From: Bacillus sp. EAC | GTDB taxonomy: Bacteria > Bacillota > Bacilli > Bacillales > Bacillaceae_G | DNA length: 64,000 nt | Direction of reading: 5' to 3' | Assembly (NCBI RefSeq): GCF_002156875.1 | Contig: NZ_NCSY01000003.1 | Location: 1 to 64,000 of the forward strand | Shown here: piece by piece, positions 1 to 16,110 of the stretch | Layout: every line of letters starts with the position of its first letter | Numbering within the stretch: the first letter of the stretch is position 1 | Translations under genes and position numbers: made by a program | The notes under the pieces: model-generated | Told to the model about the DNA's origin: nothing | Databases searched by the model: none | The model's input: only the letters and a program-made list of their open reading frames with translations

Positions 1-27
1 AACTAACGCGCCAGTTAGTTCAATAAG
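1..27. repeat. Palindromic cassette repeat R1
   Basis: The copy has arms AACTAAC and GTTAGTT around the core GCGCCA, followed by the flank CAATAAG. It begins at the first base of the window, so the array probably continues to the left. It lies 58 bases beyond the stop codon of the minus-strand gene 86-271. Confidence 0.9.
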
Positions 28-85
28 AAGTAATTCGATGTTTGTACGAAACCGGGAAAGCCTAAAACTAAACCAAGTAGCTCCA

Positions 86-271
86 TTACTTGTTAGATTT
101 CTTAATTTCCTCAGTTAAAAGATTTAAATTTTCTTCAATCCTATCCAATTGACTCCTGCGTTTCTTATTAGTACGGAAATATGAAACTATAAGGATTATA
201 ATAAAAGCGAAAAATCCTAAAATTACAAGTTGATAAATAATGTCCCCTACATTAATTGATGAACTATTCAT
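86..271 (-). CDS. Small single-pass membrane protein, DUF4083-like
   Basis: The product is about 61 residues. A short polar N-terminus is followed by one hydrophobic helix (VGDIIYQLVILGFFAF region) and a basic, coiled-coil-like tail ending LLTEEIKKSNK. This layout fits the DUF4083 family of small Bacillus membrane proteins, whose function is unknown. I chose the ATG at 271 because GGAGG at 283-287 precedes it by 11 bases; an upstream in-frame TTG overlaps that ribosome binding site. It is the leftmost complete gene of the repeat-bounded array, in the same orientation as the next seven genes. Confidence 0.7.
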   Translation of the reverse strand: MNSSSINVGDIIYQLVILGFFAFIIILIVSYFRTNKKRRSQLDRIEENLNLLTEEIKKSNK

Positions 272-349
272 TAATTTTGTTTCCTCCAATATAAATTACT
301 TTTTACAGTTTATCACATTGTTGTTAATCAAAACTTAAGTAAAGTGAAA

Positions 350-376
350 AAGGAGCTGAATGATCATCAGCTCCTT
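350..376 (-). terminator. Intrinsic terminator after the 2H phosphoesterase gene
   Basis: A 10-base perfect stem (AAGGAGCTGA / TCAGCTCCTT) with a 7-base loop ends, in minus-strand reading, in a U-rich tract. It lies beyond repeat R2, so a transcript of gene 419-928 passes through the repeat before terminating. Confidence 0.8.
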
Positions 377-387
377 TGCAACTTTTC

Positions 388-414
388 AACTAACGCGCTC
401 GTTAGTTCAATAAG
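388..414. repeat. Palindromic cassette repeat R2
   Basis: Arms AACTAAC / GTTAGTT surround a variant core GCGCTC, with the flank CAATAAG. It ends four bases before the stop codon of gene 419-928. Confidence 0.9.
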
Positions 415-418
415 GATT

Positions 419-928
419 TTACGTTAATTCAATTTTAAATTCGATTTTTGAACTTTCATCTTCCTCGATTATTTCAACCGTTAATTCTGAAATTCTTGTA
501 TTAAATATGTAATTAAAATCTTGTGTTTCATCAATAACTTTTTCAAACTGTTCCTTTTTATTTATTCTTCCAACGGTAATATGAGGAATATAACTAACAT
601 TCCTATATAGAAAGTCTTTTAATATACCCGTGTATAGCCTATCATGTAATTCAATTAGTACGTCATTTCCTTTTTTGACATTAAGAAATAAATATTGATT
701 ATTATTCCCTGTTATTCCTTGTAAGGTAAGTTCAAATGGACTCACGTAAGCTACAGCTTCTTTAATATGTTTCATTAAATCCTCTTTAACTATAGAACTT
801 GTAAATGGGAAAACAAGTGAGATATGTGGCAGGATTAAATCGTGCAAACTATCATATTTCTTTCTAACTTCATTAATTTTTTCTATATTATCAAATTGTG
901 GAATTATACAAATCGATCTATTAATCAT
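419..928 (-). CDS. 2H phosphoesterase superfamily protein (2'-5' RNA ligase-like)
   Basis: The 169-residue protein carries the two hallmark HxTx-type motifs of the 2H phosphoesterases: HISL at residues 35-38 and HITV at 116-119. Each sits on a hydrophobic strand preceded by proline. Family members hydrolyse or ligate 2',5' or cyclic 2',3' phosphodiester bonds in RNA and nucleotides; the substrate here cannot be read from sequence. The length fits a single-domain, YjcG-like enzyme without a signal peptide. The ATG start follows AAAGGAG with good spacing. It is a separate cassette from the second 2H protein next to it, and the two share little sequence beyond the motifs. Confidence 0.82.
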   Translation of the reverse strand: MINRSICIIPQFDNIEKINEVRKKYDSLHDLILPHISLVFPFTSSIVKEDLMKHIKEAVAYVSPFELTLQGITGNNNQYLFLNVKKGNDVLIELHDRLYTGILKDFLYRNVSYIPHITVGRINKKEQFEKVIDETQDFNYIFNTRISELTVEIIEEDESSKIEFKIELT

Positions 929-992
929 TGAAAATGCTCCTTTTCAAGCTCTTATTAATTAATTCCATAAGCATCACTTTAAGTCCTTGTTC

Positions 993-1075
993 AACAAACA
1001 GCTATTTACTTCAAAAAAATAGAGCTGCCATAGCAACTCGTGATCTTGAACTAACGCGCCAGTTAGTTCAATAAG
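993..1075. repeat. Cassette repeat R3 with a probable degenerate partner dyad
   Basis: The canonical dyad with core GCGCCA is at 1049-1068, flank to 1075, ten bases before the stop of gene 1086-1625. A decayed dyad, AACAAAC then TTACTT, starts at 993, exactly 56 bases upstream. That is the same spacing as the clearer double copy at 2315/2371. The canonical dyad is certain; the partner is inferred. Confidence 0.75.
1022..1039 (-). terminator. Intrinsic terminator with one G-U pair
   Basis: In minus-strand reading GAGTTGC pairs with GCAGCTC, with one wobble pair, followed by a run of seven T. It lies just beyond repeat R3 and serves gene 1086-1625. Its sequence resembles the terminator attached to the repeat at 15689. 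Confidence 0.65.
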
Positions 1076-1085
1076 TTTCTACAGT

Positions 1086-1625
1086 TTAACTTTGATACTT
1101 TAAAGGAATATCTATGTATTTTATGTATTTATTAGGCTCTATCTCTTGATATACCCTTAAAAAATTCACCATAAATGTTGGATAAGGAATTAATTCATTT
1201 TCAGCTTTTTTAGCCATTTCATCTAATTCTTCAACTGTTAATCCATAATTTGATTGTCCTAATGTTAAATGTGGTACAAAGTTTTCAAGCTCTAAATATT
1301 TCTTAATTAAATCTTCTGAAGGAGAAATTGCTTGAACAAGTTTATTATGTAAATTGTGTATTTCTGTAGATTCAACACTTAAAAAAAGTACACTTTTACC
1401 AAAGAACTTAGGCTTATGTAGTGATACTTCGAAAGGTGGAAAATCTTCACAAACTTTCATAACTTGAATTAACCAATCTTTATCGGATGTTAAACCACCT
1501 TGTGCTTTTATTGTTATATGTGGTTCAACTACATTAGTTAGAGCATTATTCCCCCATTGGTGTTGGAATTTGATAGTTCTTTCCATATATTCATCTGGTG
1601 CGACTATTCCAATAAAATACTGCAT
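1086..1625 (-). CDS. 2H phosphoesterase superfamily protein (second, divergent)
   Basis: The 179-residue protein has HITI at residues 36-39 and HLTL at 119-122, the paired active-site motifs of the 2H superfamily. Its N-terminus MQYFIGIVAP is typical of the 2'-5' RNA ligase family. The likely role is hydrolysis or transfer at 2',3'-cyclic or 2',5'-linked phosphates in the cytosol; the true substrate is unknown. The ATG follows GGAGG at good spacing, and a TATAAAT at 1647-1653 (minus strand) is a plausible -10 box, so the cassette may carry its own promoter. Terminator and repeat lie on each side. Confidence 0.82.
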   Translation of the reverse strand: MQYFIGIVAPDEYMERTIKFQHQWGNNALTNVVEPHITIKAQGGLTSDKDWLIQVMKVCEDFPPFEVSLHKPKFFGKSVLFLSVESTEIHNLHNKLVQAISPSEDLIKKYLELENFVPHLTLGQSNYGLTVEELDEMAKKAENELIPYPTFMVNFLRVYQEIEPNKYIKYIDIPLKYQS

Positions 1626-1712
1626 TTATTTCCTCCAAATATACTTATTTATACTAATATTTCTCATTAAATATTAATTTCCCTCTAATTACTTAACTAC
1701 TAAAATAAAAAA

Positions 1713-1732
1713 GAGATGCCCCAAGACATCTC
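1713..1732 (-). terminator. Intrinsic terminator after the Nudix gene
   Basis: In minus-strand reading GAGATG and CATCTC form a six-base stem with an eight-base loop, followed by a run of T. It lies 12 bases beyond repeat R4. Confidence 0.75.
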
Positions 1733-1744
1733 CAATTAATATGT

Positions 1745-1770
1745 AACTAAAGCGCCAGTTAGTTGAATAA
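1745..1770. repeat. Palindromic cassette repeat R4
   Basis: The dyad AACTAAA-GCGCCA-GTTAGTT is followed by GAATAA, which directly abuts the stop codon of gene 1771-2241. The left arm ends in A instead of C, as in R6 and the copy at 15689. Confidence 0.9.
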
Positions 1771-2241
1771 TTATCTAATAAATGGCTTATTGTTATGTCT
1801 TAATAATAAATCTTCAAATTCCGGTTTCTGATTTTCCCAGATATCAGGTAATGAGCTGAGTGGGAAATATTTCAAACTTAATGATTCTTCATTACTAAGA
1901 TCTATTGCACCATCATAATCTTTGCAAATAAAAGTTATTTTCAATACTGCAGCTTGATCACCATTCGGAAATGTACACTCATGTTCAGTACCTGAATAAA
2001 TACCCAATAACTCCAAATTACCTAAATTTAATCCAGTTTCTTCAAATGCTTCTCTTCTTACTGTATCAACTACTTTTTCCCCAAGCTCCATGAATCCTCC
2101 TGGATATCCCCATTTATTAATATCAGAGCGTAGTTGTAATAGAACACGTTCTTCAGAATCAATAATAAATACTCCAGAAGCAACCATTATTATTTTATTT
2201 TTCCCTACAAAACTTCTAATATATTGTATGTAATCACCCAT
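1771..2241 (-). CDS. Nudix hydrolase
   Basis: The 156-residue protein has an intact Nudix box: G49, E55, R63, E64, E67, E68 and G70 match GX5EX7REUXEEXGU exactly, so the metal-binding catalytic glutamates are present. Nudix enzymes cleave nucleoside diphosphates linked to another moiety; the substrate cannot be predicted here. The N-terminal VASGVFIIDSEERVLLQLRS strand region is typical of the small housecleaning type. There is no signal peptide. The ATG start follows AAGGAG. It lies between repeats R4 and R5 as a single-gene cassette. Confidence 0.9.
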   Translation of the reverse strand: MGDYIQYIRSFVGKNKIIMVASGVFIIDSEERVLLQLRSDINKWGYPGGFMELGEKVVDTVRREAFEETGLNLGNLELLGIYSGTEHECTFPNGDQAAVLKITFICKDYDGAIDLSNEESLSLKYFPLSSLPDIWENQKPEFEDLLLRHNNKPFIR

Positions 2242-2314
2242 TGTAATCTCCTTTATAACTATTTAAGGTAACTTTACCATAAATAACATATTATTTATTG
2301 AATTTTTAAAATTT

Positions 2315-2397
2315 AACTAAACCGCCAGTTAGCACAAAAAAAAGACTGTCGAAACAGTCAATTACTATTGAACTAACGCGCCAGTTAGTTGAATAAG
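2315..2397. repeat. Composite repeat: two dyads around a terminator (R5)
   Basis: A partly decayed dyad AACTAAA-CCGCCA-GTTAGCA (2315-2334) is followed by an A-run, a terminator hairpin (GACTGT / ACAGTC, 2344-2359) and a canonical dyad with core GCGCCA (2371-2390, flank to 2397). The starts of the two dyads are 56 bases apart. The same architecture recurs at 15630-15715. The hairpin acts as the minus-strand terminator for gene 2435-2764. Confidence 0.85.
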
Positions 2398-2434
2398 AAA
2401 AATTGTTTAATTAAATTTTTTGCTTGGCAGTATT

Positions 2435-2764
2435 TTAATTTCTCCACTTAATCTTTCTCAATTCTGCAACTACTGAATTCGCAATCTTTTCAAGGTATTT
2501 GTAAAAAATTTCATCTTTTTTAAATTGGCTACATAGGCAGTTACCAAAATCCTCATGATACATCAATTCAAAAAAGTAACCTTCTTTCTCTAATTTGCAA
2601 TGTCTAGACCAAATTCCATCATAATTTTCTTTTATCCCGAAATTAAGCTGGTTAGTTAAGATAGTCAGCAAAATATCAAAATCTTCCCATTGAAAAAGTT
2701 CCTCAAATTCAAAGTAAGTATAAACATTAGCTATGTTAGTATCGTATCTACGGATATTAACCAT
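2435..2764 (-). CDS. Hypothetical protein, cassette gene
   Basis: I do not recognise this 109-residue protein. It is soluble and acidic-aromatic in its first half (EFEELFQWEDFDILL). It contains a cysteine pair in DFGNCLCSQF and ends in a basic helix. No signal peptide or membrane segment is visible. A weak GGGAAATG-type context precedes the ATG. It occupies a cassette between R5 and R6. Only 57 bases separate its start from R6, with no terminator there, so it could be transcribed from upstream. Confidence 0.6.
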   Translation of the reverse strand: MVNIRRYDTNIANVYTYFEFEELFQWEDFDILLTILTNQLNFGIKENYDGIWSRHCKLEKEGYFFELMYHEDFGNCLCSQFKKDEIFYKYLEKIANSVVAELRKIKWRN

Positions 2765-2821
2765 TGAGCATTTCCCTCACAACCTTATAAACTCTTTCAA
2801 TATTTTAAAATCGATTTGTTC

Positions 2822-2848
2822 AACTAAAGCGCCAGTTAGTTCAATAGG
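2822..2848. repeat. Palindromic cassette repeat R6
   Basis: The dyad AACTAAA-GCGCCA-GTTAGTT has the flank CAATAGG. It lies 54 bases beyond the stop of gene 2903-3376. No hairpin terminator is joined to this copy. Confidence 0.88.
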
Positions 2849-2902
2849 ATTTTAAATAGGTATAGAACAAAATCAGAAATACTCATTATCTAATTTATAT
2901 TT

Positions 2903-3376
2903 TTAGTTAAAATAAGTACTATTTGCGGATTCACTAGTATTTTGTTTTTCAAAGCATGTAAGTACAAAATAACCTGCTGCTATTCCAATTATTGCAATTA
3001 GTGTAGATGTTGAATTTCCAAAATACCCTCCCATAATGTATTTGATTAATGGAAATTTCATAGAAATTATTTGTTTTAAATATAAGAACGGGGTAATAAC
3101 AAAATATAAGGCTGGAATTCCTAGTACAATAAATCTAACCCAATTGAATTTCCAAAGTCCCTGTTTGAGCAAGTTTTTAATATTATAAGGAATCGACAAT
3201 ATTGCTCCAATAATTAAAGGAAATAAAGTTTGAAATTTATAATAATCAAATAAATCATAAGTAATACTACTTTGCTTATATAGATTACTCTGATGCTTTA
3301 AACCCACTGAGATTACTACACCTAATATAATCAAATATAATAAATACGCTACTATACTTTTAATTTTATCTTCCAC
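2903..3376 (-). CDS. Four-helix membrane protein of unknown function
   Basis: The 157-residue protein has four predicted membrane segments: residues about 8-26 (AYLLYLIILGVVISVG), 48-66 (LFPLIIGAILSIP), 82-102 (IVLGIPALYFVITPFLYL) and 124-143 (LIAIIGIAAGYFVLTCF). Short polar loops separate them. I recognise no family. The ATG has an AAGGGGG ribosome binding site about seven bases upstream. A 212-base upstream region separates it from R7, enough for its own promoter. Confidence 0.65.
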   Translation of the reverse strand: MEDKIKSIVAYLLYLIILGVVISVGLKHQSNLYKQSSITYDLFDYYKFQTLFPLIIGAILSIPYNIKNLLKQGLWKFNWVRFIVLGIPALYFVITPFLYLKQIISMKFPLIKYIMGGYFGNSTSTLIAIIGIAAGYFVLTCFEKQNTSESANSTYFN

Positions 3377-3552
3377 ATAAATCCCCCTTGGCCTTTATTA
3401 ATCTAACTAAAATATTAAACAATTGAACCCATTTTCCCTTTATTCGACTAAAAATATGTTAGGTAATTATATAGTAGTACAAAAAAAAGATTTTTCTTTA
3501 CTGAATATTGTCTCTTTGAAAATAAATGTTGATATCTTGGAAATTAAAAAGA

Positions 3553-3570
3553 CTGTCTAAAATTAGACAG
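3553..3570 (-). terminator. Intrinsic terminator linked to repeat R7
   Basis: CTGTCTA pairs with TAGACAG around a four-base loop, with an A-run on the left that becomes a U-run in minus-strand reading. Its A5-GACTGTC context resembles the hairpin inside the composite repeat at 2344. Confidence 0.75.
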
Positions 3571-3588
3571 CCTTTTACTAACTTATAC

Positions 3589-3615
3589 AACTAACGCGCC
3601 AGTTAGTTGAATAAG
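3589..3615. repeat. Palindromic cassette repeat R7
   Basis: A canonical dyad with core GCGCCA and flank GAATAAG; CTTAT four bases outside the left arm nearly mirrors ATAAG on the right. It ends eight bases before the stop of gene 3624-4088. Confidence 0.9.
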
Positions 3616-3623
3616 GACTTGTA

Positions 3624-4088
3624 TTAGATATTAATTAGTAAAGTTCCATCTGAGTGAACTGTTACTAATGGTTTATCAGGATCGCTTTCTACAGTAAGAA
3701 TACTTTCTTTTCCAAGTACGTTTGATATTTTTTTCATAAAATCGAAAACTATATTAGCTTCAGACTCACTATTAACTTCTTTTGGATCAATATCGAACTC
3801 AATTTCATTTTCTGAAAAGAAATAGCAATTTATCAAAACACCTTTAATATTAATAGCCATCATAATACTGTGATTCTCTTTTTCTTTAAATAATTTATTA
3901 ACAGTTGTTTCTTTAAACTCCGATACTTGTCCATCCTTATATAAAACAATATTCCAGTGAGAACTATGGATGAATTCATATAATTTCTGCCACTCGTCTA
4001 AATCTACGTTAAACACATAAATATCTCTTAGACTTCCATCTACAAAAAATACCTGATCCATAACTCCGTTGCTAATGTTTCTATCCAT
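3624..4088 (-). CDS. Hypothetical soluble protein, cassette gene
   Basis: I do not recognise this protein of about 154 residues. It is acidic, with alternating strands and helices (WQKLYEFIHSSHWNIVLY) and a C-terminal strand pair (PLVTVHSDGTLLINI); a small immunity-like fold is possible but unproven. I chose the ATG at 4088 because GGGGA lies eight bases upstream; an upstream ATG at 4103 overlaps it. Only 41 bases lie between this start and R8, so the cassette has almost no room for a promoter and may depend on transcription through R8. Confidence 0.6.
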   Translation of the reverse strand: MDRNISNGVMDQVFFVDGSLRDIYVFNVDLDEWQKLYEFIHSSHWNIVLYKDGQVSEFKETTVNKLFKEKENHSIMMAINIKGVLINCYFFSENEIEFDIDPKEVNSESEANIVFDFMKKISNVLGKESILTVESDPDKPLVTVHSDGTLLINI

Positions 4089-4129
4089 ATGTACATTCCC
4101 CATAAAAGTATATTTTAATATCCTAATGC

Positions 4130-4156
4130 AACTAACGCGCCAGTTAGTTGCATAAG
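4130..4156. repeat. Palindromic cassette repeat R8
   Basis: The dyad with core GCGCCA extends outward symmetrically (ATGC before, GCAT after), giving 11-base arms. It lies 67 bases beyond the stop of gene 4224-4937 and has no attached terminator. Confidence 0.9.
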
Positions 4157-4223
4157 GTATTTAATTAAGTAGTACACGATTTTTATAAGTTATTATGACG
4201 TAAACGATCAGTTTAGTTAAATA

Positions 4224-4937
4224 TTATGATTGTTTTACAAAGACTTTTCCGATGTCCAAGTCCTTATTATTTGCTAATGATTGAATTAAAAAATGTATAC
4301 CTTCTATACCGCTACTTCCCAAATCAAAATATGTAATATATTTTTTTCTGTATTTCTTTATATACCGCATATAATTAATATATTTATCGCCTGATTTTTC
4401 GGATTCAAGATTCCAACTATCGTACGCTCTCTTTAGAGTATCAACTATAAGTTGTTTATCATCGTCACATTCAGTGCTATTTAGACTTACTTCAAGGCAT
4501 ATGTCTGATTCTATATAACCTGAATATTCCACTTCAAAGGGAAACATCTCAGAATCAACAACAATCGTCTTTTTCTTAGATTGCATTTTTATAGATTTAA
4601 TTGGAAAATCTTCACACCAGCTAAAAGTAATATCTATATCTTCTACATTATCAACCGGGCGAATAATTTTTTGGTCAGAAGTGCACCATTTAACGGTTAC
4701 TTCTCTACTGAAAGATCTCCAATCAACTGCACTAACTTTTGTATAACCATGTCCCTCTTTAGCAAATTTTGCACTGTTTTCATCGATTAATATGCCCCAC
4801 AAACAATTTGTAATGGATTCACCTAATAACTTTGTACCGCTTTCAGTAAGTTGTGTAATTAATTTTGATTTAAATGAAGGATGAAAATCATCCACAAATG
4901 TAAAATCAAGTTGTAGTTCCTTCTTCTTTCTTCCCAT
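4224..4937 (-). CDS. Hypothetical protein, cassette gene
   Basis: I do not recognise this protein of about 237 residues. It opens with a basic patch (MGRKKKELQL), continues as a soluble strand-rich protein with several cysteines (ITNCLWGILI, VKWCTSD, FSWCEDF), and ends in a tyrosine-rich basic helix (KYRKKYITYFDLG). I prefer the ATG at 4937, preceded by AAGAG; a GTG at 4946 is the alternative. It is the last minus-strand member of the array, with R9 89 bases upstream of its start. Confidence 0.6.
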   Translation of the reverse strand: MGRKKKELQLDFTFVDDFHPSFKSKLITQLTESGTKLLGESITNCLWGILIDENSAKFAKEGHGYTKVSAVDWRSFSREVTVKWCTSDQKIIRPVDNVEDIDITFSWCEDFPIKSIKMQSKKKTIVVDSEMFPFEVEYSGYIESDICLEVSLNSTECDDDKQLIVDTLKRAYDSWNLESEKSGDKYINYMRYIKKYRKKYITYFDLGSSGIEGIHFLIQSLANNKDLDIGKVFVKQS

Positions 4938-5026
4938 AAAGTTCACTCTTTCTTAGTAAATAAACTAAAACAAATTATACCTTAGTTTCTCATAAAAATA
5001 CTTTAATTTTTCATTATCGATTATGT

Positions 5027-5053
5027 AACTAACGCGCCAGTTAGTTGAATAAG
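5027..5053. repeat. Palindromic cassette repeat R9
   Basis: A canonical dyad with core GCGCCA and flank GAATAAG. It lies between the divergent starts of the last minus-strand cassette gene and the plus-strand gerA gene, closing the one-directional part of the array. Confidence 0.9.
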
Positions 5054-5128
5054 AGATATGTCTGAATCGTAAGGACAACTTAGCACATACTAAATATTGG
5101 GAATTAATGATTCAGTGACTAGAGGTGA

Positions 5129-6604
5129 ATGAAAATTAAACCAAGTGATGAACTAAACGCTACGATTAGTCTCAATAAGAATATCGAAGTTATTAAAGAA
5201 ACATTGAATAACACGGCTGACTTGTCTATAAGACCACTTCAAATTGGTGGAGCTCAAAAGTACGAAGGTGTACTTTTATATATTGAAAATCTAGTTGATT
5301 CACAGGCTATTCGTGATAATATCATTTCACCTTTACTTCAAATTAGGAATTCAAATGAATTGGATCATCAAAACGTAATGAAAAGTTTAGCCTATCATCA
5401 TATTCAATCACCTTCAGTAGAAATTAGTCAGTCGATTAAAACGGCTGTAAATGGAATTGTAAGAGGGAAAACGCTCTTAATGGTTGCTGGGTTTGATCAA
5501 ATTGTCATAGCAGAAACCACTCAATGGCAACAACGATCAGTTGAACAAAGTAGCAGGCAACGTTCACCTGCCGGTCCCATGATTGGACTGTCAGAACAAT
5601 TAAAAGTGAACATAAATTTAATTCGAAATTTTATTCTTTCGCCAAATTTAGTTGTGGAAATGAAACAAATCGGACGTTTTGCACAGACGGACCTTTCCAT
5701 CGTCTATTTAAAAGATAAAGTGGATACGATTGCGTTGGAGGAAGTTCGATCACGGATTGATTTATTAGATGTCGAATACGTTTTAGAATCGAGAGTGATA
5801 GAAGATGTTTTGGAAGGAAGGAAGAAATCCATTTTCCCTCTTGTTTTCAACACAGAAATGCCTGACATCGCAGCTGCTGCCTTATACGAAGGTAGAATAG
5901 CGGTATTAGTAAATGGTACTCCACAAGCTATCATTGTTCCCTCATTATTTGTTCAGTATATGGCAGAACCGAATGAATACTATACCAAAAACGGTAGACT
6001 CTCAAATCGATTTATCTTGTTTTTTTGTTACTTTTTGTCAATCCTCTTGCCAGGTATCTATGTTGCGGTTGCTAATTTTCATGAAGATTGGCTTCCTATA
6101 AAATTTGCCAAAAAATATTTTACACATTCAGAAACCATTCTCCCTTTTTTTGGGGAAGTGTCACTGTTGCTGCTCATATTATACATAATGAGTTTAATAT
6201 CCTTTCGAATTCAAACGGATTTAATTATTGTGGCTTCGTTGGTTGGAACTATGGTTATTAGTACGACAGCCGTCGATGCCAATTTAATCCATTCATTAAG
6301 TTTGATTATTGTAGGTATTTCATTTCTAACCAATATGTTGTTTGCTACTGGAGGCATGAATAATGCTGCATTCAGTTTGAGATTTTTATTTTTAATCTTC
6401 GGTAGTTTTTTTGGTTTAACTGCAATCGGAATCGGAGTCATATTTTTGATTATTTATTTGTCTTTATTGCGTTCAGTCGGTGTGCCATATTTAGCACCAA
6501 TTATTCCATTTCGACCACAAGAATTCAAAGATGTATTTTATCGAGGTGATTTAAAGAAACTAATTAACAGTCCACACAAATATCCACATGACGATAAAGA
6601 ATAA
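5129..6604 (+). CDS. Spore germination receptor A-subunit (GerA family), solitary
   Basis: The 491-residue protein matches the GerAA type. It has a soluble N-terminal part of about 290 residues, including ARGxxLM-like NGIVRGKTLLMVAGF and the segment GPMIGLSEQLKVNINLIRN, followed by several membrane helices (IFLFFCYFLSILLPGIYVAV onward) and a basic cytosolic tail ending in an acidic hexapeptide. These proteins form inner-membrane germinant receptors with B and C subunits. No gerB or gerC partner follows here, so it is an orphan. AGAGG lies only three bases before the ATG, an unusually tight ribosome binding site. The gene is framed by repeats R9 and 6686-6719, on the opposite strand from the array. 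Confidence 0.88.
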   Translation: MKIKPSDELNATISLNKNIEVIKETLNNTADLSIRPLQIGGAQKYEGVLLYIENLVDSQAIRDNIISPLLQIRNSNELDHQNVMKSLAYHHIQSPSVEISQSIKTAVNGIVRGKTLLMVAGFDQIVIAETTQWQQRSVEQSSRQRSPAGPMIGLSEQLKVNINLIRNFILSPNLVVEMKQIGRFAQTDLSIVYLKDKVDTIALEEVRSRIDLLDVEYVLESRVIEDVLEGRKKSIFPLVFNTEMPDIAAAALYEGRIAVLVNGTPQAIIVPSLFVQYMAEPNEYYTKNGRLSNRFILFFCYFLSILLPGIYVAVANFHEDWLPIKFAKKYFTHSETILPFFGEVSLLLLILYIMSLISFRIQTDLIIVASLVGTMVISTTAVDANLIHSLSLIIVGISFLTNMLFATGGMNNAAFSLRFLFLIFGSFFGLTAIGIGVIFLIIYLSLLRSVGVPYLAPIIPFRPQEFKDVFYRGDLKKLINSPHKYPHDDKE

Positions 6605-6685
6605 CAGATTATGTAGTTTAGAAACAACATGGAAAAGGATCTTATAAAAGAATATTTTTTTTACATAATCCTTTTAACATTGATT

Positions 6686-6719
6686 CTTATGCAACTAACG
6701 CATGCGTTAGTTGCATAAG
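6686..6719. repeat. Perfect 34-base palindrome form of the cassette repeat
   Basis: From CTTATGCAACTAACGCA at 6686 to the mirrored end at 6719 every base pairs, with core GCATGC. This is the longest and only fully symmetric copy; it shows that the outer CTTAT / ATAAG bases belong to the element. It lies 81 bases after the gerA stop codon. Confidence 0.92.
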
Positions 6720-6837
6720 TACCCTTCATTAGATAAAAAAATGTTGTACTAATTAGTAACCATATGAGTACCATGGGAAATTACATAACTGTTCCAATTG
6801 CAAATGAGTATATTTTAAACCCAATAATATGGTTAAT

Positions 6838-6950
6838 GCTTCATCATTATTGTCGTATACAGCTACATGGAGTCCTTTGGAAGCAACTTGTTATGCAATC
6901 TGATTTTCTAAAACATCACTACCTGCAATAGTTACATTATTATAATTCAT
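6838..6950 (-). pseudogene. Decayed N-terminus of a 3-hydroxyacyl-CoA dehydrogenase gene
   Basis: In minus-strand reading from an ATG at 6950 the product begins MNYNNVTIAGSDVLENQIA, then meets TAA and continues QVASKGLHVAVYDNN. The intact gene at 8677-9573 begins MKYHNVTVAGSGVLGSQIAY and continues QIAFKGFNVAVYDIN. The ribosome binding region upstream is also nearly identical. The in-frame stop, the damaged GxGxxG loop and the loss of homology after about 38 codons show that it is a remnant of a duplicated copy. Confidence 0.85.
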
Positions 6951-7088
6951 AGGAATTCTCCTTTTTTATATACCTAGTCATTACTTATTTATTTTGAAAG
7001 ACATTTTCCTAAATAACGTTGGTTACGGTCATATCAGAAAAATAAAGAAACAAAAGTATGCGTCGATCCAGCTGGTTCATAAATTACA

Positions 7089-8486
7089 TTAAAACTGTAT
7101 TTGTACTTTTGGTATCTGATATGCTCCATCAAGTAAAGTTTGTTTAGGCATATACATTCTTAACGATAGAACAAAATGATTTTTTGGTGAAGGAAGCCAA
7201 TTAGATTCATGCCCTACTGGTACAGCATTTTGGATATATATATCTAATGAACCATCAGCATTGTATTTAAGACCCTTTGTTCGATCGCCAATAGAAAAAC
7301 GGTTTATCGGGTTGTTAACAAAGAAAAAATCTGATCCGTACATGCTTAACGACCAAAAAGCATTTACTGGTGGCAAATGATTTTTATCAAAATGTATAAT
7401 ATATTTTTGCTCTCCACTAAGAGGATTACCGTTACTATCAATTTGAGTAAATGGATAGATAGCTTCTTTTGGTATATTAGCTCCTAATCCATAGCGTGCA
7501 ACTACAGCTCTCGTTAAGTAGTTCGTATCGTATGTCCCCACATCGTAATATTCTGTCCAAAAATTATTCGTTTTTCCTACAATAGATAAAGATTTTGCAA
7601 TAATATCCTGTGCATCTATCAAACCGCGTCCAAGTCCCGCCATTATTGAAGGATCCTGACTTGTTTCGAACCCTTTATTTGGATCGATTCCAATTAATTT
7701 AAATTGAGATAACATCGCAGCATCTCTTGCTGGCGCAGGATATAACTTCATTAATTGAGTCATAATTCCAAAGTAACGTACTGGATCATTGTAATCACTC
7801 TCTAAAATAGTAGGCAGATTTAGTGAAGGTCTAGACTGTTTTTTATCATATGGTGTTAGTGTATATTTGTTTTGAATAGCATGCACAGTGGATAAATCTT
7901 TTTCTCCATCAACTAATGTACGTCCTAGCAGCCAAACCATATTAGTAGGAGTCTTGATCACTTTTGAATTCTTATTTATTTTTCCCTTCCAATTCGGTCC
8001 TACAATAACATATTTTCCTGCTTTTGTTCCTGTTGTACGTGTTCCAACATAGTGAAAAGAATTCGTATACATGTCCATAAATTGAAAAGAATAATATCTA
8101 CCATTCACATTAGGAACGCTTAAAACGATTGGCCCTTTTGAAAGGTCAAGCCATGAACTGGAATAGAGCGTATCATTGTTAGGTTGAACAACGTCTCTAA
8201 ACGTATCGTCTTTTAAATTTCTAGCATGAACAAAAGTGTTCAGTGGAACATTTTTTGATGTTCTTTGCATCGTTTTTGCCATTTCAAGAAGAGGATAACC
8301 ATATATATATGCCTGGACTCCAATACTGTAGGCTAAATTCTCAAGATATTGGTTCTGAACTGCTAATACGGAGGTTTCATTTTGTGAAGGGCTAGGTGCC
8401 GTATTAGCGAACACACTCCCTGCAAAAATAGCCATTGATGTTAGAAAGCCTATTACGGGTATTAAAAGTTTTTTTTCTTTTTCCAT
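7089..8486 (-). CDS. Secreted DUF1254/DUF1214 family protein
   Basis: The protein of about 465 residues starts with a cleavable signal peptide (basic MEKEKK, hydrophobic core LLIPVIGFLTSMAIFAGSVF, ANTA cleavage region), so it is exported. The DUF1254 region follows (QPNNDTLYSSSWLDL, YYSFQFMDMYTNSFHYVGTR) and the C-terminal DUF1214 region (FWSLSMYGSDFFFVNNPINRF, MYMPKQTLLDG). The biochemical role of the family is not settled. I chose the ATG at 8486, ten bases after AAAGGGG. It sits between a fragment of an SDR gene and a fragment of a dehydrogenase gene, which suggests insertion into a duplicated operon. Confidence 0.85.
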   Translation of the reverse strand: MEKEKKLLIPVIGFLTSMAIFAGSVFANTAPSPSQNETSVLAVQNQYLENLAYSIGVQAYIYGYPLLEMAKTMQRTSKNVPLNTFVHARNLKDDTFRDVVQPNNDTLYSSSWLDLSKGPIVLSVPNVNGRYYSFQFMDMYTNSFHYVGTRTTGTKAGKYVIVGPNWKGKINKNSKVIKTPTNMVWLLGRTLVDGEKDLSTVHAIQNKYTLTPYDKKQSRPSLNLPTILESDYNDPVRYFGIMTQLMKLYPAPARDAAMLSQFKLIGIDPNKGFETSQDPSIMAGLGRGLIDAQDIIAKSLSIVGKTNNFWTEYYDVGTYDTNYLTRAVVARYGLGANIPKEAIYPFTQIDSNGNPLSGEQKYIIHFDKNHLPPVNAFWSLSMYGSDFFFVNNPINRFSIGDRTKGLKYNADGSLDIYIQNAVPVGHESNWLPSPKNHFVLSLRMYMPKQTLLDGAYQIPKVQIQF

Positions 8487-8582
8487 GAAAATAAGACCCC
8501 TTTCTGACAACGTTTTCATTTTTATTATTAAGAAAATATAATATTTTTTAACCTACCTTTTTAGATTTTTCGAATAAATCAT

Positions 8583-8661
8583 TTAGGTACGACTTGTACT
8601 TTTTCAATATATCAGTATTAGCGAAACTTGGATGATTCAAGGAAGCCAAAGTATTGACTCC
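8583..8661 (-). pseudogene. Fragment of an SDR gene
   Basis: The minus strand reads GVNTLASLNHPSFANTDILK, matching GVDVGTIHPSFANTDMMK in the intact SDR gene at 9707-10540; at the base level, 8583-8661 aligns with about 9949-10022. Only this internal stretch remains, so it is a relic of a second SDR copy. It lies just upstream of the DUF1254 gene. Confidence 0.75.
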
Positions 8662-8676
8662 TTAGAGTGACCTGTA

Positions 8677-9573
8677 TTAATTTAAAAACTCTGGTTTCAT
8701 GAATTTTGGGTTGGGATAATTGTAGAAACCTTCTCCTGTTTCTTTTCCAAGTTTTCCTTTATCGATATACTCAGTTTTCAATAACTTAGCTAATTTTTCA
8801 GACTCTTGATCACCTAACGCTTCCGCTTTTGTATGTGCAATGTGATAAGCGGTTCTAAGACCTATAATGTCTAAAAAAGCAAAAGGTCCAATGGGGGATC
8901 CTGTTGCGATCATCCATGTTTTATCAATCGTTTCTATATCAGCAACTTCATTAGATAAGAGCATCGTAGCAGCTTCTAAAAAAGGAACTAATAAAGTGTT
9001 CATAATATAAGCCGGTTGCTCTTTATGTAAAGGTAAAGCAACCATACCAATGGCTTTAGCAAATTCAATTACGTCATTAAACACATTTATATCCGTTCCA
9101 TTGTGTTTCATGATTTCTGCAACATTGTTCTTCCAAATTTCATTAGCAAAGTGTAGAGCTAGAAATTTTGCTGGTCGTCCTGTCGCTTCAGCAAATTGGC
9201 TTGGCAATAAAGTGGAAGTGTTCGTTGCGAAAATTGACTTTTCAGGAGCAACTTTCCCTAACTCTTTGTAAAAATCAGTCTTAATTTGAGCAACTTCAGG
9301 AATCGCTTCAATTACTAGGTCTGCTTCTTCAACAGATTTTGATAAATCACAACTGAAGGAAATTCGATTAAAAGCAGTATTAACCTCTTCCGCAGTAGCT
9401 CCTAAATCTTCTTGATAACGTGCCTTCAAATTTAAGATTCTATCTTTTGCAGTGTTTAATGATTCTTCATTAATATCATATACAGCTACGTTGAAACCTT
9501 TAAAAGCAATTTGATATGCAATCTGACTTCCTAAAACACCACTACCTGCAACAGTAACATTATGATATTTCAT
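8677..9573 (-). CDS. 3-hydroxyacyl-CoA (3-hydroxybutyryl-CoA) dehydrogenase
   Basis: The 298-residue protein has the N-terminal Rossmann NAD loop GSGVLGSQ at residues 10-17, the conserved NTSTLLPSQ segment, the catalytic histidine in LALHFANEIW, and the C-terminal dimerisation domain with GSPIGPFAFLDIIGL and GKETGEGFYNYP. It oxidises 3-hydroxyacyl-CoA to 3-ketoacyl-CoA with NAD, in fatty-acid or butyrate-type metabolism. Length is normal for the family. It follows the SDR gene by 133 bases on the same strand, probably as an operon. A decayed second copy lies at 6838-6950. Confidence 0.9.
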   Translation of the reverse strand: MKYHNVTVAGSGVLGSQIAYQIAFKGFNVAVYDINEESLNTAKDRILNLKARYQEDLGATAEEVNTAFNRISFSCDLSKSVEEADLVIEAIPEVAQIKTDFYKELGKVAPEKSIFATNTSTLLPSQFAEATGRPAKFLALHFANEIWKNNVAEIMKHNGTDINVFNDVIEFAKAIGMVALPLHKEQPAYIMNTLLVPFLEAATMLLSNEVADIETIDKTWMIATGSPIGPFAFLDIIGLRTAYHIAHTKAEALGDQESEKLAKLLKTEYIDKGKLGKETGEGFYNYPNPKFMKPEFLN

Positions 9574-9706
9574 AGAAATTCTCCTTTTTTAGTTATTAAT
9601 TGGGTATGCTTTAAAAACTTTCACTTCAGAGTTTTCAACTCATAGAATCAAAGGTAATTCTTCCGGATTCATGTTTCAGCAGACCTTTTTTATTGTCATA
9701 TATCAG

Positions 9707-10540
9707 CTACTTCATTAATGACTTCCCTGCGGTATAAGCTGTCAATGTTTCCTTAATTTTATTTTTGGTAAAAAATCGTTCAATTAGTGGTTGAGCGAAG
9801 CTAGGACACATTGCAGCAAGCCAGAATTTCTTAGGTACTACTGTCATTCGTTTTCTTGTAAGAAGAGCATGCTCCATGGCGTCGATGACTACCTCGGGTT
9901 CCAACATCCCCCAGACTCCCTTGTTACCATTCCACAATTGTTTACCACCAGGTACGACTTCTATTTCTTTCATCATATCAGTATTGGCGAAGCTAGGATG
10001 GATCGTTCCTACATCAACTCCAAAAGGTCGCATTTCTAACCGGAAACAATTCGCCATCGCGAATACGGCTGCCTTAGAAGCAGTGTAGTGAGAATTCAAA
10101 GGCGATTGGATAAAGGCAGCCATCGAAGAAACTACCATTGCGTAACCTTTAGACTCTTTAAGACTAGGAGCAGCAGCATGTAGAGTATTAAAGACTCCTA
10201 TTAGATTAACGTCAATTACTTTTCTAAAATTATTTGGGTCTATATTTTCCAAAGGATCTATCGTACCAATTCCAGCATTTGCTACCACGACATCCAGCTT
10301 ACCGAAAGCTGAAATAGCCGTATTCACTGCTCCTTTTAAATCTTCAAGAGAAGTTACATCTCCCTCGACGATACGCATTTTGGAACCAAATGGCGTCGCA
10401 ACCTCTTTCATTAATTCAGGCTCAAGCCCGAAAAGTACTACTTTCATTCCTCTTTTAGCCATCCGTTCCACAAGTCCCGCACCCAATCCTCTTGAAGCAC
10501 CCGTTACTAAAGCTACACGTCCTTGAACCATCCATTTCAT
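9707..10540 (-). CDS. Short-chain dehydrogenase/reductase
   Basis: The 277-residue protein has the SDR cofactor motif TGASRGLG at residues 13-20, NAG in VVVANAGIG, the catalytic serine in VVSSMAAF and the YTASK active site. C-terminally it carries a lipid-type SDR extension. It catalyses NAD(P)-dependent reduction or oxidation of an unidentified alcohol or ketone. The ATG follows AAAGGAG. Its neighbours (a hydroxyacyl-CoA dehydrogenase on the same strand, an acyl-CoA ligase further on) point to acyl-chain or sterol-like substrates, which is inference. A fragment of a second copy is at 8583-8661. Confidence 0.88.
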   Translation of the reverse strand: MKWMVQGRVALVTGASRGLGAGLVERMAKRGMKVVLFGLEPELMKEVATPFGSKMRIVEGDVTSLEDLKGAVNTAISAFGKLDVVVANAGIGTIDPLENIDPNNFRKVIDVNLIGVFNTLHAAAPSLKESKGYAMVVSSMAAFIQSPLNSHYTASKAAVFAMANCFRLEMRPFGVDVGTIHPSFANTDMMKEIEVVPGGKQLWNGNKGVWGMLEPEVVIDAMEHALLTRKRMTVVPKKFWLAAMCPSFAQPLIERFFTKNKIKETLTAYTAGKSLMK

Positions 10541-10635
10541 ATCTTTATACTCCTTTCGACATTAAAAAACTATTAATTTTCATAAAATTCAAAAAAATAA
10601 ACCTTACCCAGAATATTATAATAAAGTAAACTATC

Positions 10636-10725
10636 GGACAATTACCCGAAAGGGTGGTAAACCCCGAGTTAATTCTTTTGGTATAGGATTAATCCTGTGA
10701 TTATCACTCTAACGGGTAATTGTCC
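10636..10725. promoter_or_regulatory. Widely spaced 13-base inverted repeat in a divergent promoter region
   Basis: GGACAATTACCCG at 10636-10648 is mirrored exactly by CGGGTAATTGTCC at 10713-10725, 64 bases apart. It lies between the divergent SDR gene and the regulator at 10813. A smaller palindrome AGGATTAATCCT lies between the arms. The arms could be paired operator half-sites or sites for a looping regulator; function is inferred. Confidence 0.55.
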
Positions 10726-10812
10726 ACCTCTATCAAACTATTTAAAATCAGAATTAACTAAATTTTCAATAAATCAAAATTAAGTAATATACTTGAACGG
10801 AGGTGATTAAAA

Positions 10813-11505
10813 TTGCAAAATAATTGGGCTTATATATTAGATCTATTTTGTTATCGTCATGGATTTGCGGGACAAATATACGATTCACGAGGGAACGAAC
10901 TATTTCCATTTATTAATTATTGTGAAGGACATCAGAAGTCAATGGAGTTCTATGGAGACAAAGTAAACCAAGAATTTTGCCTCCCAATTATCGAGCAGTT
11001 TAATTCATTAACAGATCCAGTGGTTTTAAGATCGAAAATTATCCTTCGTCCAAATATCATTCTGTATCCGTTTACTGTGGATCATCAGAAATACTTTTTG
11101 TTTACAGGCTTTTATTTATGTGAAGGTGAAAAAGAATGGCTGCTTGAGAATACGATGGAAACCCCTTGGAAGTTTTATCTAGGTACATTGAAAATTTTCA
11201 CACTTTCTGAAGAACAGAATATGATTCATGAAATTGGCAGGTTGGTTCAGTTGTTAACAAATCAAGGAAGCCTAAGTCCAAAAGTTGCAGTTTCCGAGCA
11301 GTCTAATGAACCTCTTACAGAACGCGAGAATCAAGTATTAGTGCTAATAGTAAGGGGATTGACCAATAAAGAGATAGCCAAGAACCTGTTTATAAGTGAA
11401 AACACAGTGAAGGCCCATGTGCGGAAAATATTGCAAAAGAAAAAAGTGGAAGATCGACGTAAATTGATTATCTTGCATTCCGAAAATGATCCGTCCAATA
11501 CTTAA
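10813..11505 (+). CDS. LuxR-type regulator with PocR-like sensory domain
   Basis: The 230-residue protein ends in a LuxR-type helix-turn-helix (LTERENQVLVLIVRGLTNKE, then ISENTVKAHVRKIL, residues about 172-222). The N-terminal 150 residues contain cysteine- and aromatic-rich segments (CYRHGFAGQIYDSRG, YCEGHQ, FLFTGFYLCEGE) that resemble a PocR-type ligand-binding domain; that assignment is tentative. There is no receiver aspartate, so it is probably a one-component regulator. Translation starts at TTG, eight bases after AGGTG. It lies divergent to the SDR operon and upstream of the hydrolase, its likely targets. Confidence 0.75.
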   Translation: MQNNWAYILDLFCYRHGFAGQIYDSRGNELFPFINYCEGHQKSMEFYGDKVNQEFCLPIIEQFNSLTDPVVLRSKIILRPNIILYPFTVDHQKYFLFTGFYLCEGEKEWLLENTMETPWKFYLGTLKIFTLSEEQNMIHEIGRLVQLLTNQGSLSPKVAVSEQSNEPLTERENQVLVLIVRGLTNKEIAKNLFISENTVKAHVRKILQKKKVEDRRKLIILHSENDPSNT

Positions 11506-11614
11506 AATTTGATTTAAGCGACATTATAGTTGGTTATTAGAAACATTGTATTTTTTATGGATTTGAAACCGTTTACACGATAGTGATCATCTAGTATTGA
11601 AAGGAGAAACAAAT

Positions 11615-12535
11615 GTGAGTACAGTAAATAAAACATTTAAATTTAAAGCTATTAACTCCACGTTTCTTAGTGGAGGATTGAAATGCGGAGGAACGCTTTA
11701 CTTACCCATAGGAATAAATAATCCTGCCATCATTATCATGGCTCATGGGTTTGCTGGTACACGAGATTTCAGATTAGATGCTTTTGCAGAAAGATTTGTA
11801 GAAGCTGGTGTAGCCGCTTTCTTTTTTGACTATCGAAATTTTGGGGATAGCGAGGGGGAGCCTCGCCATTGGGTAGATCCAAAGAGACATCAAGAGGATT
11901 ATTACGAGGCACTGAAACATGTCAAATCTTTGACTGAGATTGATGCTAATCGTATCATTTTATGGGGGAGCTCTCTTTCAGGTGGACATGTTCTAACAAT
12001 TGCGGGGAAACAACCTTCAATTGCAGCAGTGATTGCACAAGTTCCGCATGTAAGTGGAATTCCCACCATGTTAGCTATGAAAACGAGCGATCTTCTTAAA
12101 GCTGTTGGCGCAGCATTGCGTGACATTCTAAGTAACACGTTGTTCAAAAGTCATTATTACAGCCCTGTATTCGGAAAGCCTGGAGAATTTGCGGCTATGA
12201 ACTCTGAGGGAAGCTGGGAAGGATTTAAGCAATTGGTACCCCCAGGATCCCGATGGGAAAACAAAGTACTGGCTAGGGTATTTCTTAAAATTCCGATGTA
12301 CAGCCCCTCTCACAGTGTACACAGGATACTAGTACCTTCATTAATCATAGCAGGAAGCAAAGACACTGTAACACCAGCAGCGACTACCAGACGCGTAGCA
12401 ACTAAAATAAAAGAAGCAGAGTTCCACATGCTTGAATGCACTCATTTTGAGCCCTATACTGGAGATTATTTCGAGAAGAATATTGCCATTCAAATCGAAT
12501 TTCTTAAGCGCCATGGTTTTTGTCCTCAAATGTAA
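11615..12535 (+). CDS. Alpha/beta hydrolase
   Basis: The protein of about 306 residues has an alpha/beta hydrolase core. MAHGFAGTRDF is the oxyanion loop, GSSLSGGH the nucleophile elbow, GSKDTVTP carries the acid and CTHFEPYTG the histidine. No signal peptide is present. This sequence type is close to dienelactone-hydrolase-like and CocE-like esterases; the substrate is unknown. I chose the GTG at 11615, preceded by AAAGGAG; a TTG at 11597 overlaps that site. Together with the neighbouring CoA-ligase and dehydrogenases it could release or degrade an ester, which is inference. Confidence 0.82.
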   Translation: MSTVNKTFKFKAINSTFLSGGLKCGGTLYLPIGINNPAIIIMAHGFAGTRDFRLDAFAERFVEAGVAAFFFDYRNFGDSEGEPRHWVDPKRHQEDYYEALKHVKSLTEIDANRIILWGSSLSGGHVLTIAGKQPSIAAVIAQVPHVSGIPTMLAMKTSDLLKAVGAALRDILSNTLFKSHYYSPVFGKPGEFAAMNSEGSWEGFKQLVPPGSRWENKVLARVFLKIPMYSPSHSVHRILVPSLIIAGSKDTVTPAATTRRVATKIKEAEFHMLECTHFEPYTGDYFEKNIAIQIEFLKRHGFCPQM

Positions 12536-12580
12536 AGGCTCCTCAGTAGGTGATTAATCAATGAGAAATAAACAATAATG

Positions 12581-12614
12581 CTTATGCAAATAACGTGCTC
12601 GTTAGTTGAACAAG
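12581..12614. repeat. Cassette repeat, extended 34-base copy
   Basis: CTTATGC, left arm AAATAAC, core GTGCTC, right arm GTTAGTT and outer GAACAAG make an imperfect 34-base dyad. The core resembles that of R2 (GCGCTC). It lies 45 bases after the stop of the hydrolase gene. Confidence 0.8.
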
Positions 12615-12684
12615 CACTTATCTAATTTATGAATAAACAATGTTTCATTTGATTTAACAGTAATTAATTGGTCTTAATGAAAAA

Positions 12685-12704
12685 AAGGAGGATAATTCCT
12701 CCCT
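12685..12704 (-). terminator. Intrinsic terminator of the acyl-CoA ligase gene
   Basis: In minus-strand reading a GGAGGA / TCCTCC stem with a four-base loop is followed by a run of six T. It lies about 80 bases after the ligase stop codon. Confidence 0.75.
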
Positions 12705-12785
12705 TTCCCTTTAATTCATAGAAATTTTTTATTCATTCCGGAGAATTTGACAAAATTCTGGTAAATTATGAAAAATCACAACAAC

Positions 12786-14375: not shown

Positions 14376-14703
14376 ACCTCCCGATTTAAACTATGAGTCT
14401 CACTCAAGCGCTCTCCCTTTTCTGAAACTCACATCACATCTCTCCAATTCACCAACTTATATAAAATTAACTTAATAATTGTTCGAATTTTCAAAATATG
14501 ATTCATACTAATAATTCTAGTTCGTAAAGCTACATTCCTGTTTAACATTTCTCCGATTTTATAAAAAGATTTTTTTACTATTATCTCAACTAACTTTCCA
14601 GGTAGGTGAATAAAACAACAGCAATGGACTGTTCACACGGGCTTTTAATTAAGATTTTCGTCAATAATAATTATAAGAAAGAATTATTGGAGGAATTTTA
14701 CTA
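14376..14703. other. Intergenic region upstream of the recombinase
   Basis: This 328-base gap holds the promoter side of the acyl-CoA ligase gene, a degenerate cassette repeat (14588-14614) and the GGAGG ribosome binding site of the recombinase. No further gene is visible. Confidence 0.6.
14588..14614. repeat. Degenerate cassette repeat upstream of the recombinase
   Basis: The left arm AACTAAC is perfect, the core is TTTCCA, and the right arm is altered to GGTAGGT with the flank GAATAAA. The match to the consensus arm, core ending CCA and flank makes it a decayed family member. It lies 90 bases before the recombinase start. Confidence 0.6.
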
Positions 14704-15543: not shown

Positions 15544-15629
15544 AAATAGGACCTAAAAAATGTCCTTTTACTTATAAAATATATTATTCAATTATAAAAC
15601 ACGACCCATTTTGTGAAGGATTACACTTA

Positions 15630-15715
15630 AACTAAACTGCCAGTTAGTCCAATAAAAAAAGCCGCATTAGCGACTTGTGATCTTGTTCAACTAAAGCGCC
15701 AGTTAGTTCAATAAG
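15630..15715. repeat. Composite cassette repeat downstream of the recombinase
   Basis: A dyad AACTAAA-CTGCCA-GTTAGTC (15630-15649) is followed by an A-run, a hairpin (about 15661-15677) and a canonical dyad AACTAAA-GCGCCA-GTTAGTT (15689-15708, flank to 15715). The dyad starts are 59 bases apart. The hairpin and the TGATCTTG that follows closely match the unit at 1022-1048. The sequence left of the first dyad matches that at 22145-22180. Confidence 0.85.
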
Positions 15716-15725
15716 ATATAACGTT

Positions 15726-16025: not shown

Positions 16026-16110
16026 ATTTTTTAAGCTTTCAACTTTATAATCAGCATTAAAAATATCGGATTATTGGGCTAACTAAATCTAATTGTATTA
16101 GTAACTCATT

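Follow-up and report, generated by a model that had tools for sequence, protein, structure and literature searches.

An integron-like cassette array in Bacillus sp. EAC, with exchange points inside a 34-bp dyad and a candidate Xer-like recombinase of its own

Integrons are the best-known bacterial route for stockpiling and reshuffling single genes. The left part of a 64,000-nucleotide stretch of Bacillus sp. EAC (contig NZ_NCSY01000003.1, positions 1 to 64,000; hereafter the window) carries a row of mostly one-gene units, or cassettes, which are separated by copies of an inverted repeat that we call site A and among which lies the gene of a tyrosine recombinase. The same units adjoin different neighbours within and between two species of the genus Gottfriedia, this one and G. 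solisilvae, with the changeover inside site A, and cassette-sized blocks are shared between the species; the mobility that an initial annotation had proposed from the letters alone is thereby supported. Taken together, the observations make it very probable that the array belongs to an integron-like cassette system peculiar to the Bacillales, in which a dedicated Xer-like recombinase would act on site A as a double-stranded dyad.

Aligned across this genome, site A has the consensus CTTATTC-AACTAAC-GCGCCA-GTTAGTT-GAATAAG and is conserved over 34 columns, with two arms of 14 bp, a core of 6 bp (14-6-14) and the weakest conservation in the outer left arm. The 11-6-11 geometry of Xer/dif sites, to which the initial annotation had likened the repeat, therefore does not apply; the dyad is unlike dif, and a canonical dif, with one mismatch to what we take to be the B. 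subtilis dif sequence, sits elsewhere in the genome. At up to three mismatches the window holds 18 matches, against 6.2 ± 2.6 in shuffled versions, of which 0 of 100 reached 18. A 34-column profile, trained on the same array stretches in which sites were then counted, places 12 sites within the first 20 kb but has no hit at 20-64 kb, and an Rfam search of positions 1-20000 returned no match. Among 299 sampled genomes of the order, a related pattern fitted to the window's genus (left arms and cores differ in other genera) clearly exceeded its control only in that genus, in 7 of 8 sampled members, with a maximum outside it of 7 per strand, in two genomes. Labels used below give the genome (G), contig (C) or locus (L) by number, G000 being this genome and G006 G. 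solisilvae NEAU-cbsb5. Palindromic A-type sites with core GCATGC occur in the window (6686-6719) and at G000:C5:147073 and 148639, C5 being a contig that contains no strict match to the repeat's 27-mer; empty target sites and old terminators are candidate roles for them. At L061:11595, L067:650, L127:14649 and L132:7706 one arm gives way, always at the same point, to a common short sequence, which would fit the precise insertion of another element.

Across the array stretches of this genome and G. solisilvae, the profile finds 352 sites A bounding 340 units of median length 639 bp, and 336 of the 352 share the majority orientation of their stretch. Three stretches have a single orientation throughout (117/117, 55/55 and 38/38 sites), the first two being G. 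solisilvae contigs of about 0.9 Mb (0.89 Mb for the one with 117 sites). Exactly one open reading frame (ORF) of at least 50 amino acids is present in 257 of 340 units and none in 23, the largest ORF lies on the gene strand of the site in 287 of 317 units, and its stop codon is a median of 22 bp from the next site (n = 284).

Evidence that these units move comes from a comparison of the flanks of 424 A-like sites, in which 49 pairs shared the upstream flank only, 176 the downstream flank only and two both. The 176 were dropped as a count of exchange, since many of these pairs match merely through similar terminator and site B sequence (see below), and strict sets were used instead; of the two remaining pairs, one was a double match of a single site and the other a conserved neighbourhood in G008 and G009, and the only two candidates for the presence or absence of a single cassette were discarded as overlapping matches of that same site. 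Strict pairs, in which 90% identity reaches the site, number 18 for the upstream and 12 for the downstream flank; 13 and 9 of them lie away from contig ends, and 9 and 6 of these fall within long G. solisilvae contigs. Where the upstream flank is shared (13 pairs), identity is 0.97 at columns -7 to -3, 0.69 at -2 and -1, and 0.29 at 27 to 80; where the downstream flank is shared (9 pairs), it is 0.95 at columns 20 to 26 and 0.33 at -60 to -8. Because identity thus falls from about 0.95-0.97 to about 0.3 across the site, the exchange point is inside site A. The first base of the right arm mostly goes with the downstream unit (normalised identity 0.78 vs 0.14).

Shared blocks, whose counts include a few copies of the recombinase gene, tell the same story. 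When G. solisilvae is compared with itself, 19 of 30 block ends fall within 25 bp of a site centre (6.3% at random) and none of 15 blocks spans a site; between the two genomes the figures are 11 of 34 ends (5.0% at random) and 1 of 17 blocks. One complete unit of the window (388-1068) is 95.5% identical in a G. solisilvae array, where its neighbour is different, against 74% for sbcCD, which adjoins the window's array, and this difference suggests recent transfer or exchange, although the housekeeping yardstick is a single locus and thin. In the 7 relatives examined, out of 12 in the genus, the 15-30 kb beside sbcC contain no match above 28% identity to the 21 window genes left of sbcC. A gene order fixed among relatives, one of two outcomes that the initial annotation had held contrary to mobility, was thus not what the comparison returned: neighbours differ, and the junction lies in A.

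The features of the first 15.7 kb are as follows.

1-27, minus strand: site A R1, plus-strand core GCGCCA, at the contig end (from repeat matches)
86-289, minus strand: cassette gene 1, small membrane-type protein, no family above cut-off
349-377, minus strand: terminator-like hairpin, directly downstream of R2 on the gene strand
388-414, minus strand: site A R2, core GCGCTC; gene-side flank 96.7% identical to a G. solisilvae flank with a different neighbour
388-1068, minus strand: the complete unit compared above, site to site
419-928, minus strand: cassette gene 2, 2'-5' RNA ligase superfamily
1022-1039, minus strand: terminator-like hairpin, directly downstream of R3 on the gene strand
1049-1075, minus strand: site A R3
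1086-1625, minus strand: cassette gene 3, 2'-5' RNA ligase superfamily
1712-1733, minus strand: terminator-like hairpin, directly downstream of R4 on the gene strand
1745-1771, minus strand: site A R4
1771-2241, minus strand: cassette gene 4, NUDIX
2315-2334, minus strand: site B of the R5 composite
2344-2359, minus strand: terminator-like hairpin between A and B of the R5 composite
2371-2397, minus strand: site A R5
2435-2764, minus strand: cassette gene 5, no Pfam match
2822-2848, minus strand: site A R6
2860-3614: block shared with a G. solisilvae array, 90.4% identical
2903-3376, minus strand: cassette gene 6, no Pfam match
3589-3615, minus strand: site A R7
3624-4103, minus strand: cassette gene 7, no Pfam match
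4130-4156, minus strand: site A R8
4224-4946, minus strand: cassette gene 8, no Pfam match
5027-5053, minus strand: site A R9
5129-6604, plus strand: spore-germination (GerA type) gene between R9 and the site at 6693, named by eye from its sequence
6686-6719, no orientation: perfect 34-bp A-type palindrome, core GCATGC
12581-12614, minus strand: degenerate site A, gene-strand core GAGCAC, after the AMP-ligase gene
12786-14375, minus strand: AMP-binding enzyme gene between the sites at 12588 and 15689
14588-14607, minus strand: B-like site upstream of the recombinase start
14704-15543, plus strand: tyrosine recombinase, 279 amino acids
15630-15649, minus strand: site B of the composite beside the recombinase
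15682-15715, minus strand: site A beside the recombinase, last clear site of the array

The AMP-binding label comes from one scanned cassette protein (set A3) that matches the family and was equated with 12786-14375 from its sequence.

Much of the initial description of this region stands. The nine repeats in 5 kb start at 1, 388, 1049, 1745, 2371, 2822, 3589, 4130 and 5027, and the eight minus-strand genes, each followed by a repeat, have stop codons 6-74 bases from a 20-mer of it, or about 0-67 from the outer ATAAG. The genes were said to be unrelated, which fails for two, both of the 2'-5' RNA ligase family. R9 is a site as described, with a plus-strand GerA-type gene on its gene side in place of a minus-strand one. 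The pairing of repeat and gene as a unit is confirmed and refined: a second dyad (B) and a terminator between A and B had been missed, and both go with the following unit. Beyond 5 kb the sites run on (6693, 12588, 15689) around larger units, the recombinase gene among them, and the limit of about 15.7 kb holds within the window, as the profile shows, but not for the genome, where the repeat is abundant elsewhere. The initial annotation had advised a search for the dyad next to XerC-like genes, and a Xer-like recombinase gene is present in the array itself.

This recombinase sits between the B-like site at 14588 and the B/A pair at 15630 and 15689, and it has Arg138, His228-x-x-Arg231, His254 and Tyr263, which, on the pattern of the superfamily, are its presumed catalytic residues. 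Its size, domain make-up and best profile matches are like those of XerA, XerC and XerD, whereas it scores below the NCBIfam cut-offs for all three, shares 31-32% identity with the two Xer-type proteins that the genome encodes, and falls in a separate clade from them. In a tree of 57 rows, from which rows with stops (L089, L147) had been removed, all 50 family rows group in a single clade (99/98), separate from four Xer-type and three IntI rows; the tree is midpoint-rooted, and the long branches of XerX_own_C28 and IntI_L154 make their placement unsure. Against the IntI model TIGR02249 the recombinase scores 94.5 bits, with a cut-off of 265, and a search of the genome with that model gave no match above cut-off. 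The IntI-specific insert is absent, appearing as gaps of 14 and 26 residues in a pairwise alignment with one Bacillota IntI, and IntI profile positions 170-234 are unmatched, as is much the same stretch in the genome's Xer proteins. Judged by its sequence, the recombinase is not an IntI; for comparison, 2 of 398 Bacillota genomes exceed the IntI cut-off.

Relatives of the recombinase are 91-92% identical in G. solisilvae and 82% in two other Gottfriedia. At E<=1e-50 the family is found in 95 of 397 Bacillales genomes and 46 of 135 genera, and in 33 of the 46 genera the best match is at 1e-100 or better; full-length members outside Gottfriedia reach 69% identity, and the weakest members counted have less than 40%. 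An even draw over the phylum gave 6 of 398 genomes at E<=1e-65, this one included. The gene is also carried by plasmids of 'Arthrobacter citreus' NEB 577 (82%), Sporosarcina psychrophila (66%) and Peribacillus simplex (63%), the first a 250-kb plasmid (closed record CP053689.1; L079, L171; G012) that combines recombinase and sites with VirB4 and other type IV secretion system genes. The genome collection places strain NEB 577 in the same Bacillales genus as the window, so that the name of the record looks wrong. A generic dyad scan of related plasmids gave mostly noise outside Gottfriedia. In viral contigs none of 126 stretches matching the peptide pattern codes for a recombinase relative, and none of 935 matching phage records reaches 60% identity. 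A further group of recombinases, 36-42% identical and with frames of about 310-370 amino acids, occurs in Bacillales and beyond (G009:C1:27262, G146:C10:55396 and similar).

A second element of the system is seen in part of this family. Inspection by eye of 52 loci, two of which (L007 and L079) represent a single record, shows about 20 in which a terminator and then an attI-like half-site of the form CTCTT-GCACCC-GTTAGTTTAAG come after the stop codon of the recombinase; the right arm of the half-site is cassette-like and the left arm particular to the platform. Six loci of one genus (15 pairs) have an identity of 0.87 over the 25 nt that lead up to the core and of 0.35 over the 60 nt beyond it, a divergence that is expected if different cassettes have entered there. 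In 20 longer loci searched with a loose motif, several plainly had sites oriented with the recombinase, numbering 14 (L127), 7 (L116) and 7 (L119), with reversed ones at 0, 0 and 2. A second subclade of the family (L104-L106, L133-L141, L144-L152) is mostly without the half-site, L142 and L143 belonging to the first. A short palindrome of AAGTG..TTCAC type follows the right arm downstream of the attI-like site at L087, L091, L096, L098 and L142, and a similar one in mirror image stands ahead of the B site at window position 15630; such palindromes may be additional sites of binding.

With a recombinase gene in the array, a natural question is whether it is merely incidental cargo, with the host's XerC and XerD using the sites as they do in Acinetobacter pdif modules. 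We regard this as improbable. The six-base core and inverted arms do resemble Xer sites, the best solved-structure matches of the recombinase are XerC-like 4a8e, XerD and XerA, with IntI4 weaker, and several array-bearing relatives carry only broken copies of the array recombinase. On the other hand, the genome has its separate canonical dif, unlike site A, and the two Xer-type proteins of the genome do not share a clade with the array recombinase. The modules themselves (PMC12907356) are similar in being small gene modules with short inverted-repeat sites, a 6-bp centre, and rows on chromosomes and plasmids, but their sites are 28-bp XerC/XerD sites in C/D and D/C order, in contrast to the single 34-bp site type, near-uniform orientation and dedicated recombinase family found here. 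Because site length, orientation and probably the enzyme differ, the system is not a pdif module.

Somewhat less probable again is that the repeats are ordinary terminators or elements resembling repetitive extragenic palindromes (REP), shuffled by homologous recombination between cassettes or between the repeats. The site does stand at gene 3' ends and adjoins terminators, a looser arms-only pattern (two mismatches) matches 308 places in the genome against 71 for a reversed control, only the first of which were listed, and two perfect GCATGC palindromes lie in C5, a contig devoid of strict matches. A 27-mer of the site at up to one mismatch, however, has all of its 64 genomic matches within 8 of 28 contigs, those of the arrays, and the reversed control has none; the even scatter that the initial annotation had named as its second contrary outcome was therefore not seen for the strict matches. 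Moreover, the run of T residues comes after a separate hairpin, itself 3' of A, and the ends of shared blocks fall at A, with hardly any block spanning a site.

That hairpin is part of a recurring composite. On the gene strand, a terminator-like hairpin lies within 55 nt downstream of A at 196 of 351 sites and upstream at 12 of 351, and it is followed by site B, a second, weaker dyad with core TGGCAG, mostly 58-61 bp past the start of A, which scores at least 15 of 25 at 140 of 318 sites and at 40 of 400 random positions. The A-hairpin-B order recurs near the recombinase in other Gottfriedia species and can be read by eye, the core being GGGTGC, on one plasmid each of Sporosarcina and Metabacillus. 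Because units with different neighbours change over within A, terminator and site B belong to the following unit; the terminator may act on transcription, and site B is, as a guess, an accessory binding site. Folding of the composite in the manner of attC gave mixed pairing, with one of 12 tests near significance and little or no covariation, and it was kept as a rival only. Least probable of all, then, is a true IntI/attC integron with A-hairpin-B recombining as a folded single strand: A and B flank a hairpin and can pair (predicted in 44 of 113 composites on the gene strand and 14 of 113 on the other, with energy parameters that may not be DNA ones), and in the best of the 12 pairing tests (A13 with B4) 81 of 2000 shuffles did as well, but each of the other 11 was reached by at least 199 of 2000, A is conserved in sequence and folds on itself in 63 composites of 113 on the gene strand and in 94 on the other, and the recombinase lacks both the IntI score and the IntI insert.

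The preferred explanation is a Bacillales system acting at double-stranded site A, and its mechanism can be sketched. The recombinase encoded at 14704-15543, presumably the enzyme that acts at these sites, would recognise the 34-bp dyad, pair two A sites, or an attI-like site and an A site, and exchange strands inside or at the edge of the 6-bp core. Mostly one-gene units would be excised and inserted between like-oriented A sites, with circular cassettes as the probable intermediates and with orientation fixed because the core is asymmetric. A cassette would run from one A core to the next and comprise the right half of A, often a terminator and site B, the gene, and the left half of the next A. 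The terminator, travelling at the cassette front, would therefore end the transcript of the gene upstream. In related genera, foreign cassettes would enter at the attI-like half-site after the recombinase gene.

Several observations weigh against this account. No clean case was found in which exactly one cassette had come or gone while its neighbours stayed identical, a pattern that the initial annotation had put forward as a check. Core columns 7-8 are intermediate in normalised identity (0.63 and 0.31 with a shared upstream flank, 0.45 and 0.48 with a shared downstream flank), so that the exchange is bounded to the site and not to one base, and the yardstick for recent transfer is, as noted, one locus. 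The assembly of this genome is fragmented, with contig ends falling at sites, and near-end pairs were removed in the stricter set. As for the enzyme, among 12 Gottfriedia relatives 7 carry nothing beyond interrupted, split or partial copies, two have no copy at E<=1e-50, and the second G. solisilvae copy (L018:1501-2331, 91% identical) has Asp in place of the presumed catalytic Tyr263 and is for that reason probably inactive. About 32 of the 52 family loci, chiefly in the second subclade, show no attI-like site by eye; the window's own recombinase has none at its stop codon, the nearest A lying about 145 bp off with B between; and with the loose motif the sites of L130-L132 are mostly reversed relative to the recombinase, L114 and L115 having none. 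The NEB 577 plasmid is typed as non-mobilizable in PLSDB despite its secretion genes. Finally, cassettes showed no excess of promoters, the best sigma-70-type score being 7.93 against 8.09 in shuffles (n = 185), and positions 1-5200 of the window gave 26 promoter-like matches against 32.9 in shuffles.

The cargo was surveyed in ORFs of at least 70 amino acids lying whole in one locus: all 96 listed for contig C11 of G. solisilvae, whose contigs C1 and C17 fell outside the set, and 110 of the 124 listed for this genome, 9 of the 14 omitted being opposite to the array. Families found in this part of the cassette proteins include NUDIX, GNAT, SUKH, APH-type phosphotransferase and chloramphenicol-acetyltransferase-like proteins, and five of the eight window cassette genes have no Pfam family at cut-off. 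By family match, G000 and G006 appear to carry several APH-type, NUDIX, GNAT and SUKH members and single members of the chloramphenicol-acetyltransferase and beta-lactamase families. PADLOC assigned 11 families to the 96 G. solisilvae proteins, at E values of 1.3e-07 or weaker with one exception at 6.4e-11. Positions 1-272 of the window are 100% identical to the end of contig C10 (G000:C10:15782-16053), and array contig ends here and at C12 and C13 overlap by 271-272 bp at 100%; because of this overlap, C10 is probably the leftward continuation of the array.

In its operation the system is like an integron, with a recombinase that stays below the IntI threshold. In both, rows of units that mostly hold one gene and share an orientation lie next to a tyrosine recombinase gene, the cargo is diverse and there are very long arrays of the chromosomal type; in part of the family a candidate counterpart of attI also adjoins the recombinase gene. 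Integrons differ in their IntI recombinase, as against a non-IntI enzyme and a sequence-conserved dyad here; the genes here, in the loci read, run toward the 3' end of the recombinase gene, and each gene has a terminator and site B on its 5' side, which lie downstream of the crossover. Among the matches listed from Creative Commons-licensed PMC papers, preprints not included, there was no description of the system or its site sequences. It is reasonably likely, with less confidence than we place in the system as such, that this is an independently evolved Bacillales counterpart of the integron, present in dozens of genera, which captures, stores and reshuffles single-gene cassettes through double-stranded dyads and which has attI-like entry, super-arrays of more than 100 cassettes, plasmid platforms and front terminators. 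On that reading, it would have gone unrecognised because integron searches seek IntI and folded attC sites.

The IntegronFinder 2.0 paper calls the reasons for the rarity of complete integrons in Firmicutes unclear (PMC9024848). A separate cassette system in the Bacillales would, if true, be part of the answer. It would also suggest more than one origin of cassette capture from Xer-like enzymes, and it would expose a large hidden gene pool; and with site, attI-like entry point and recombinase now defined, the mechanism is directly testable.

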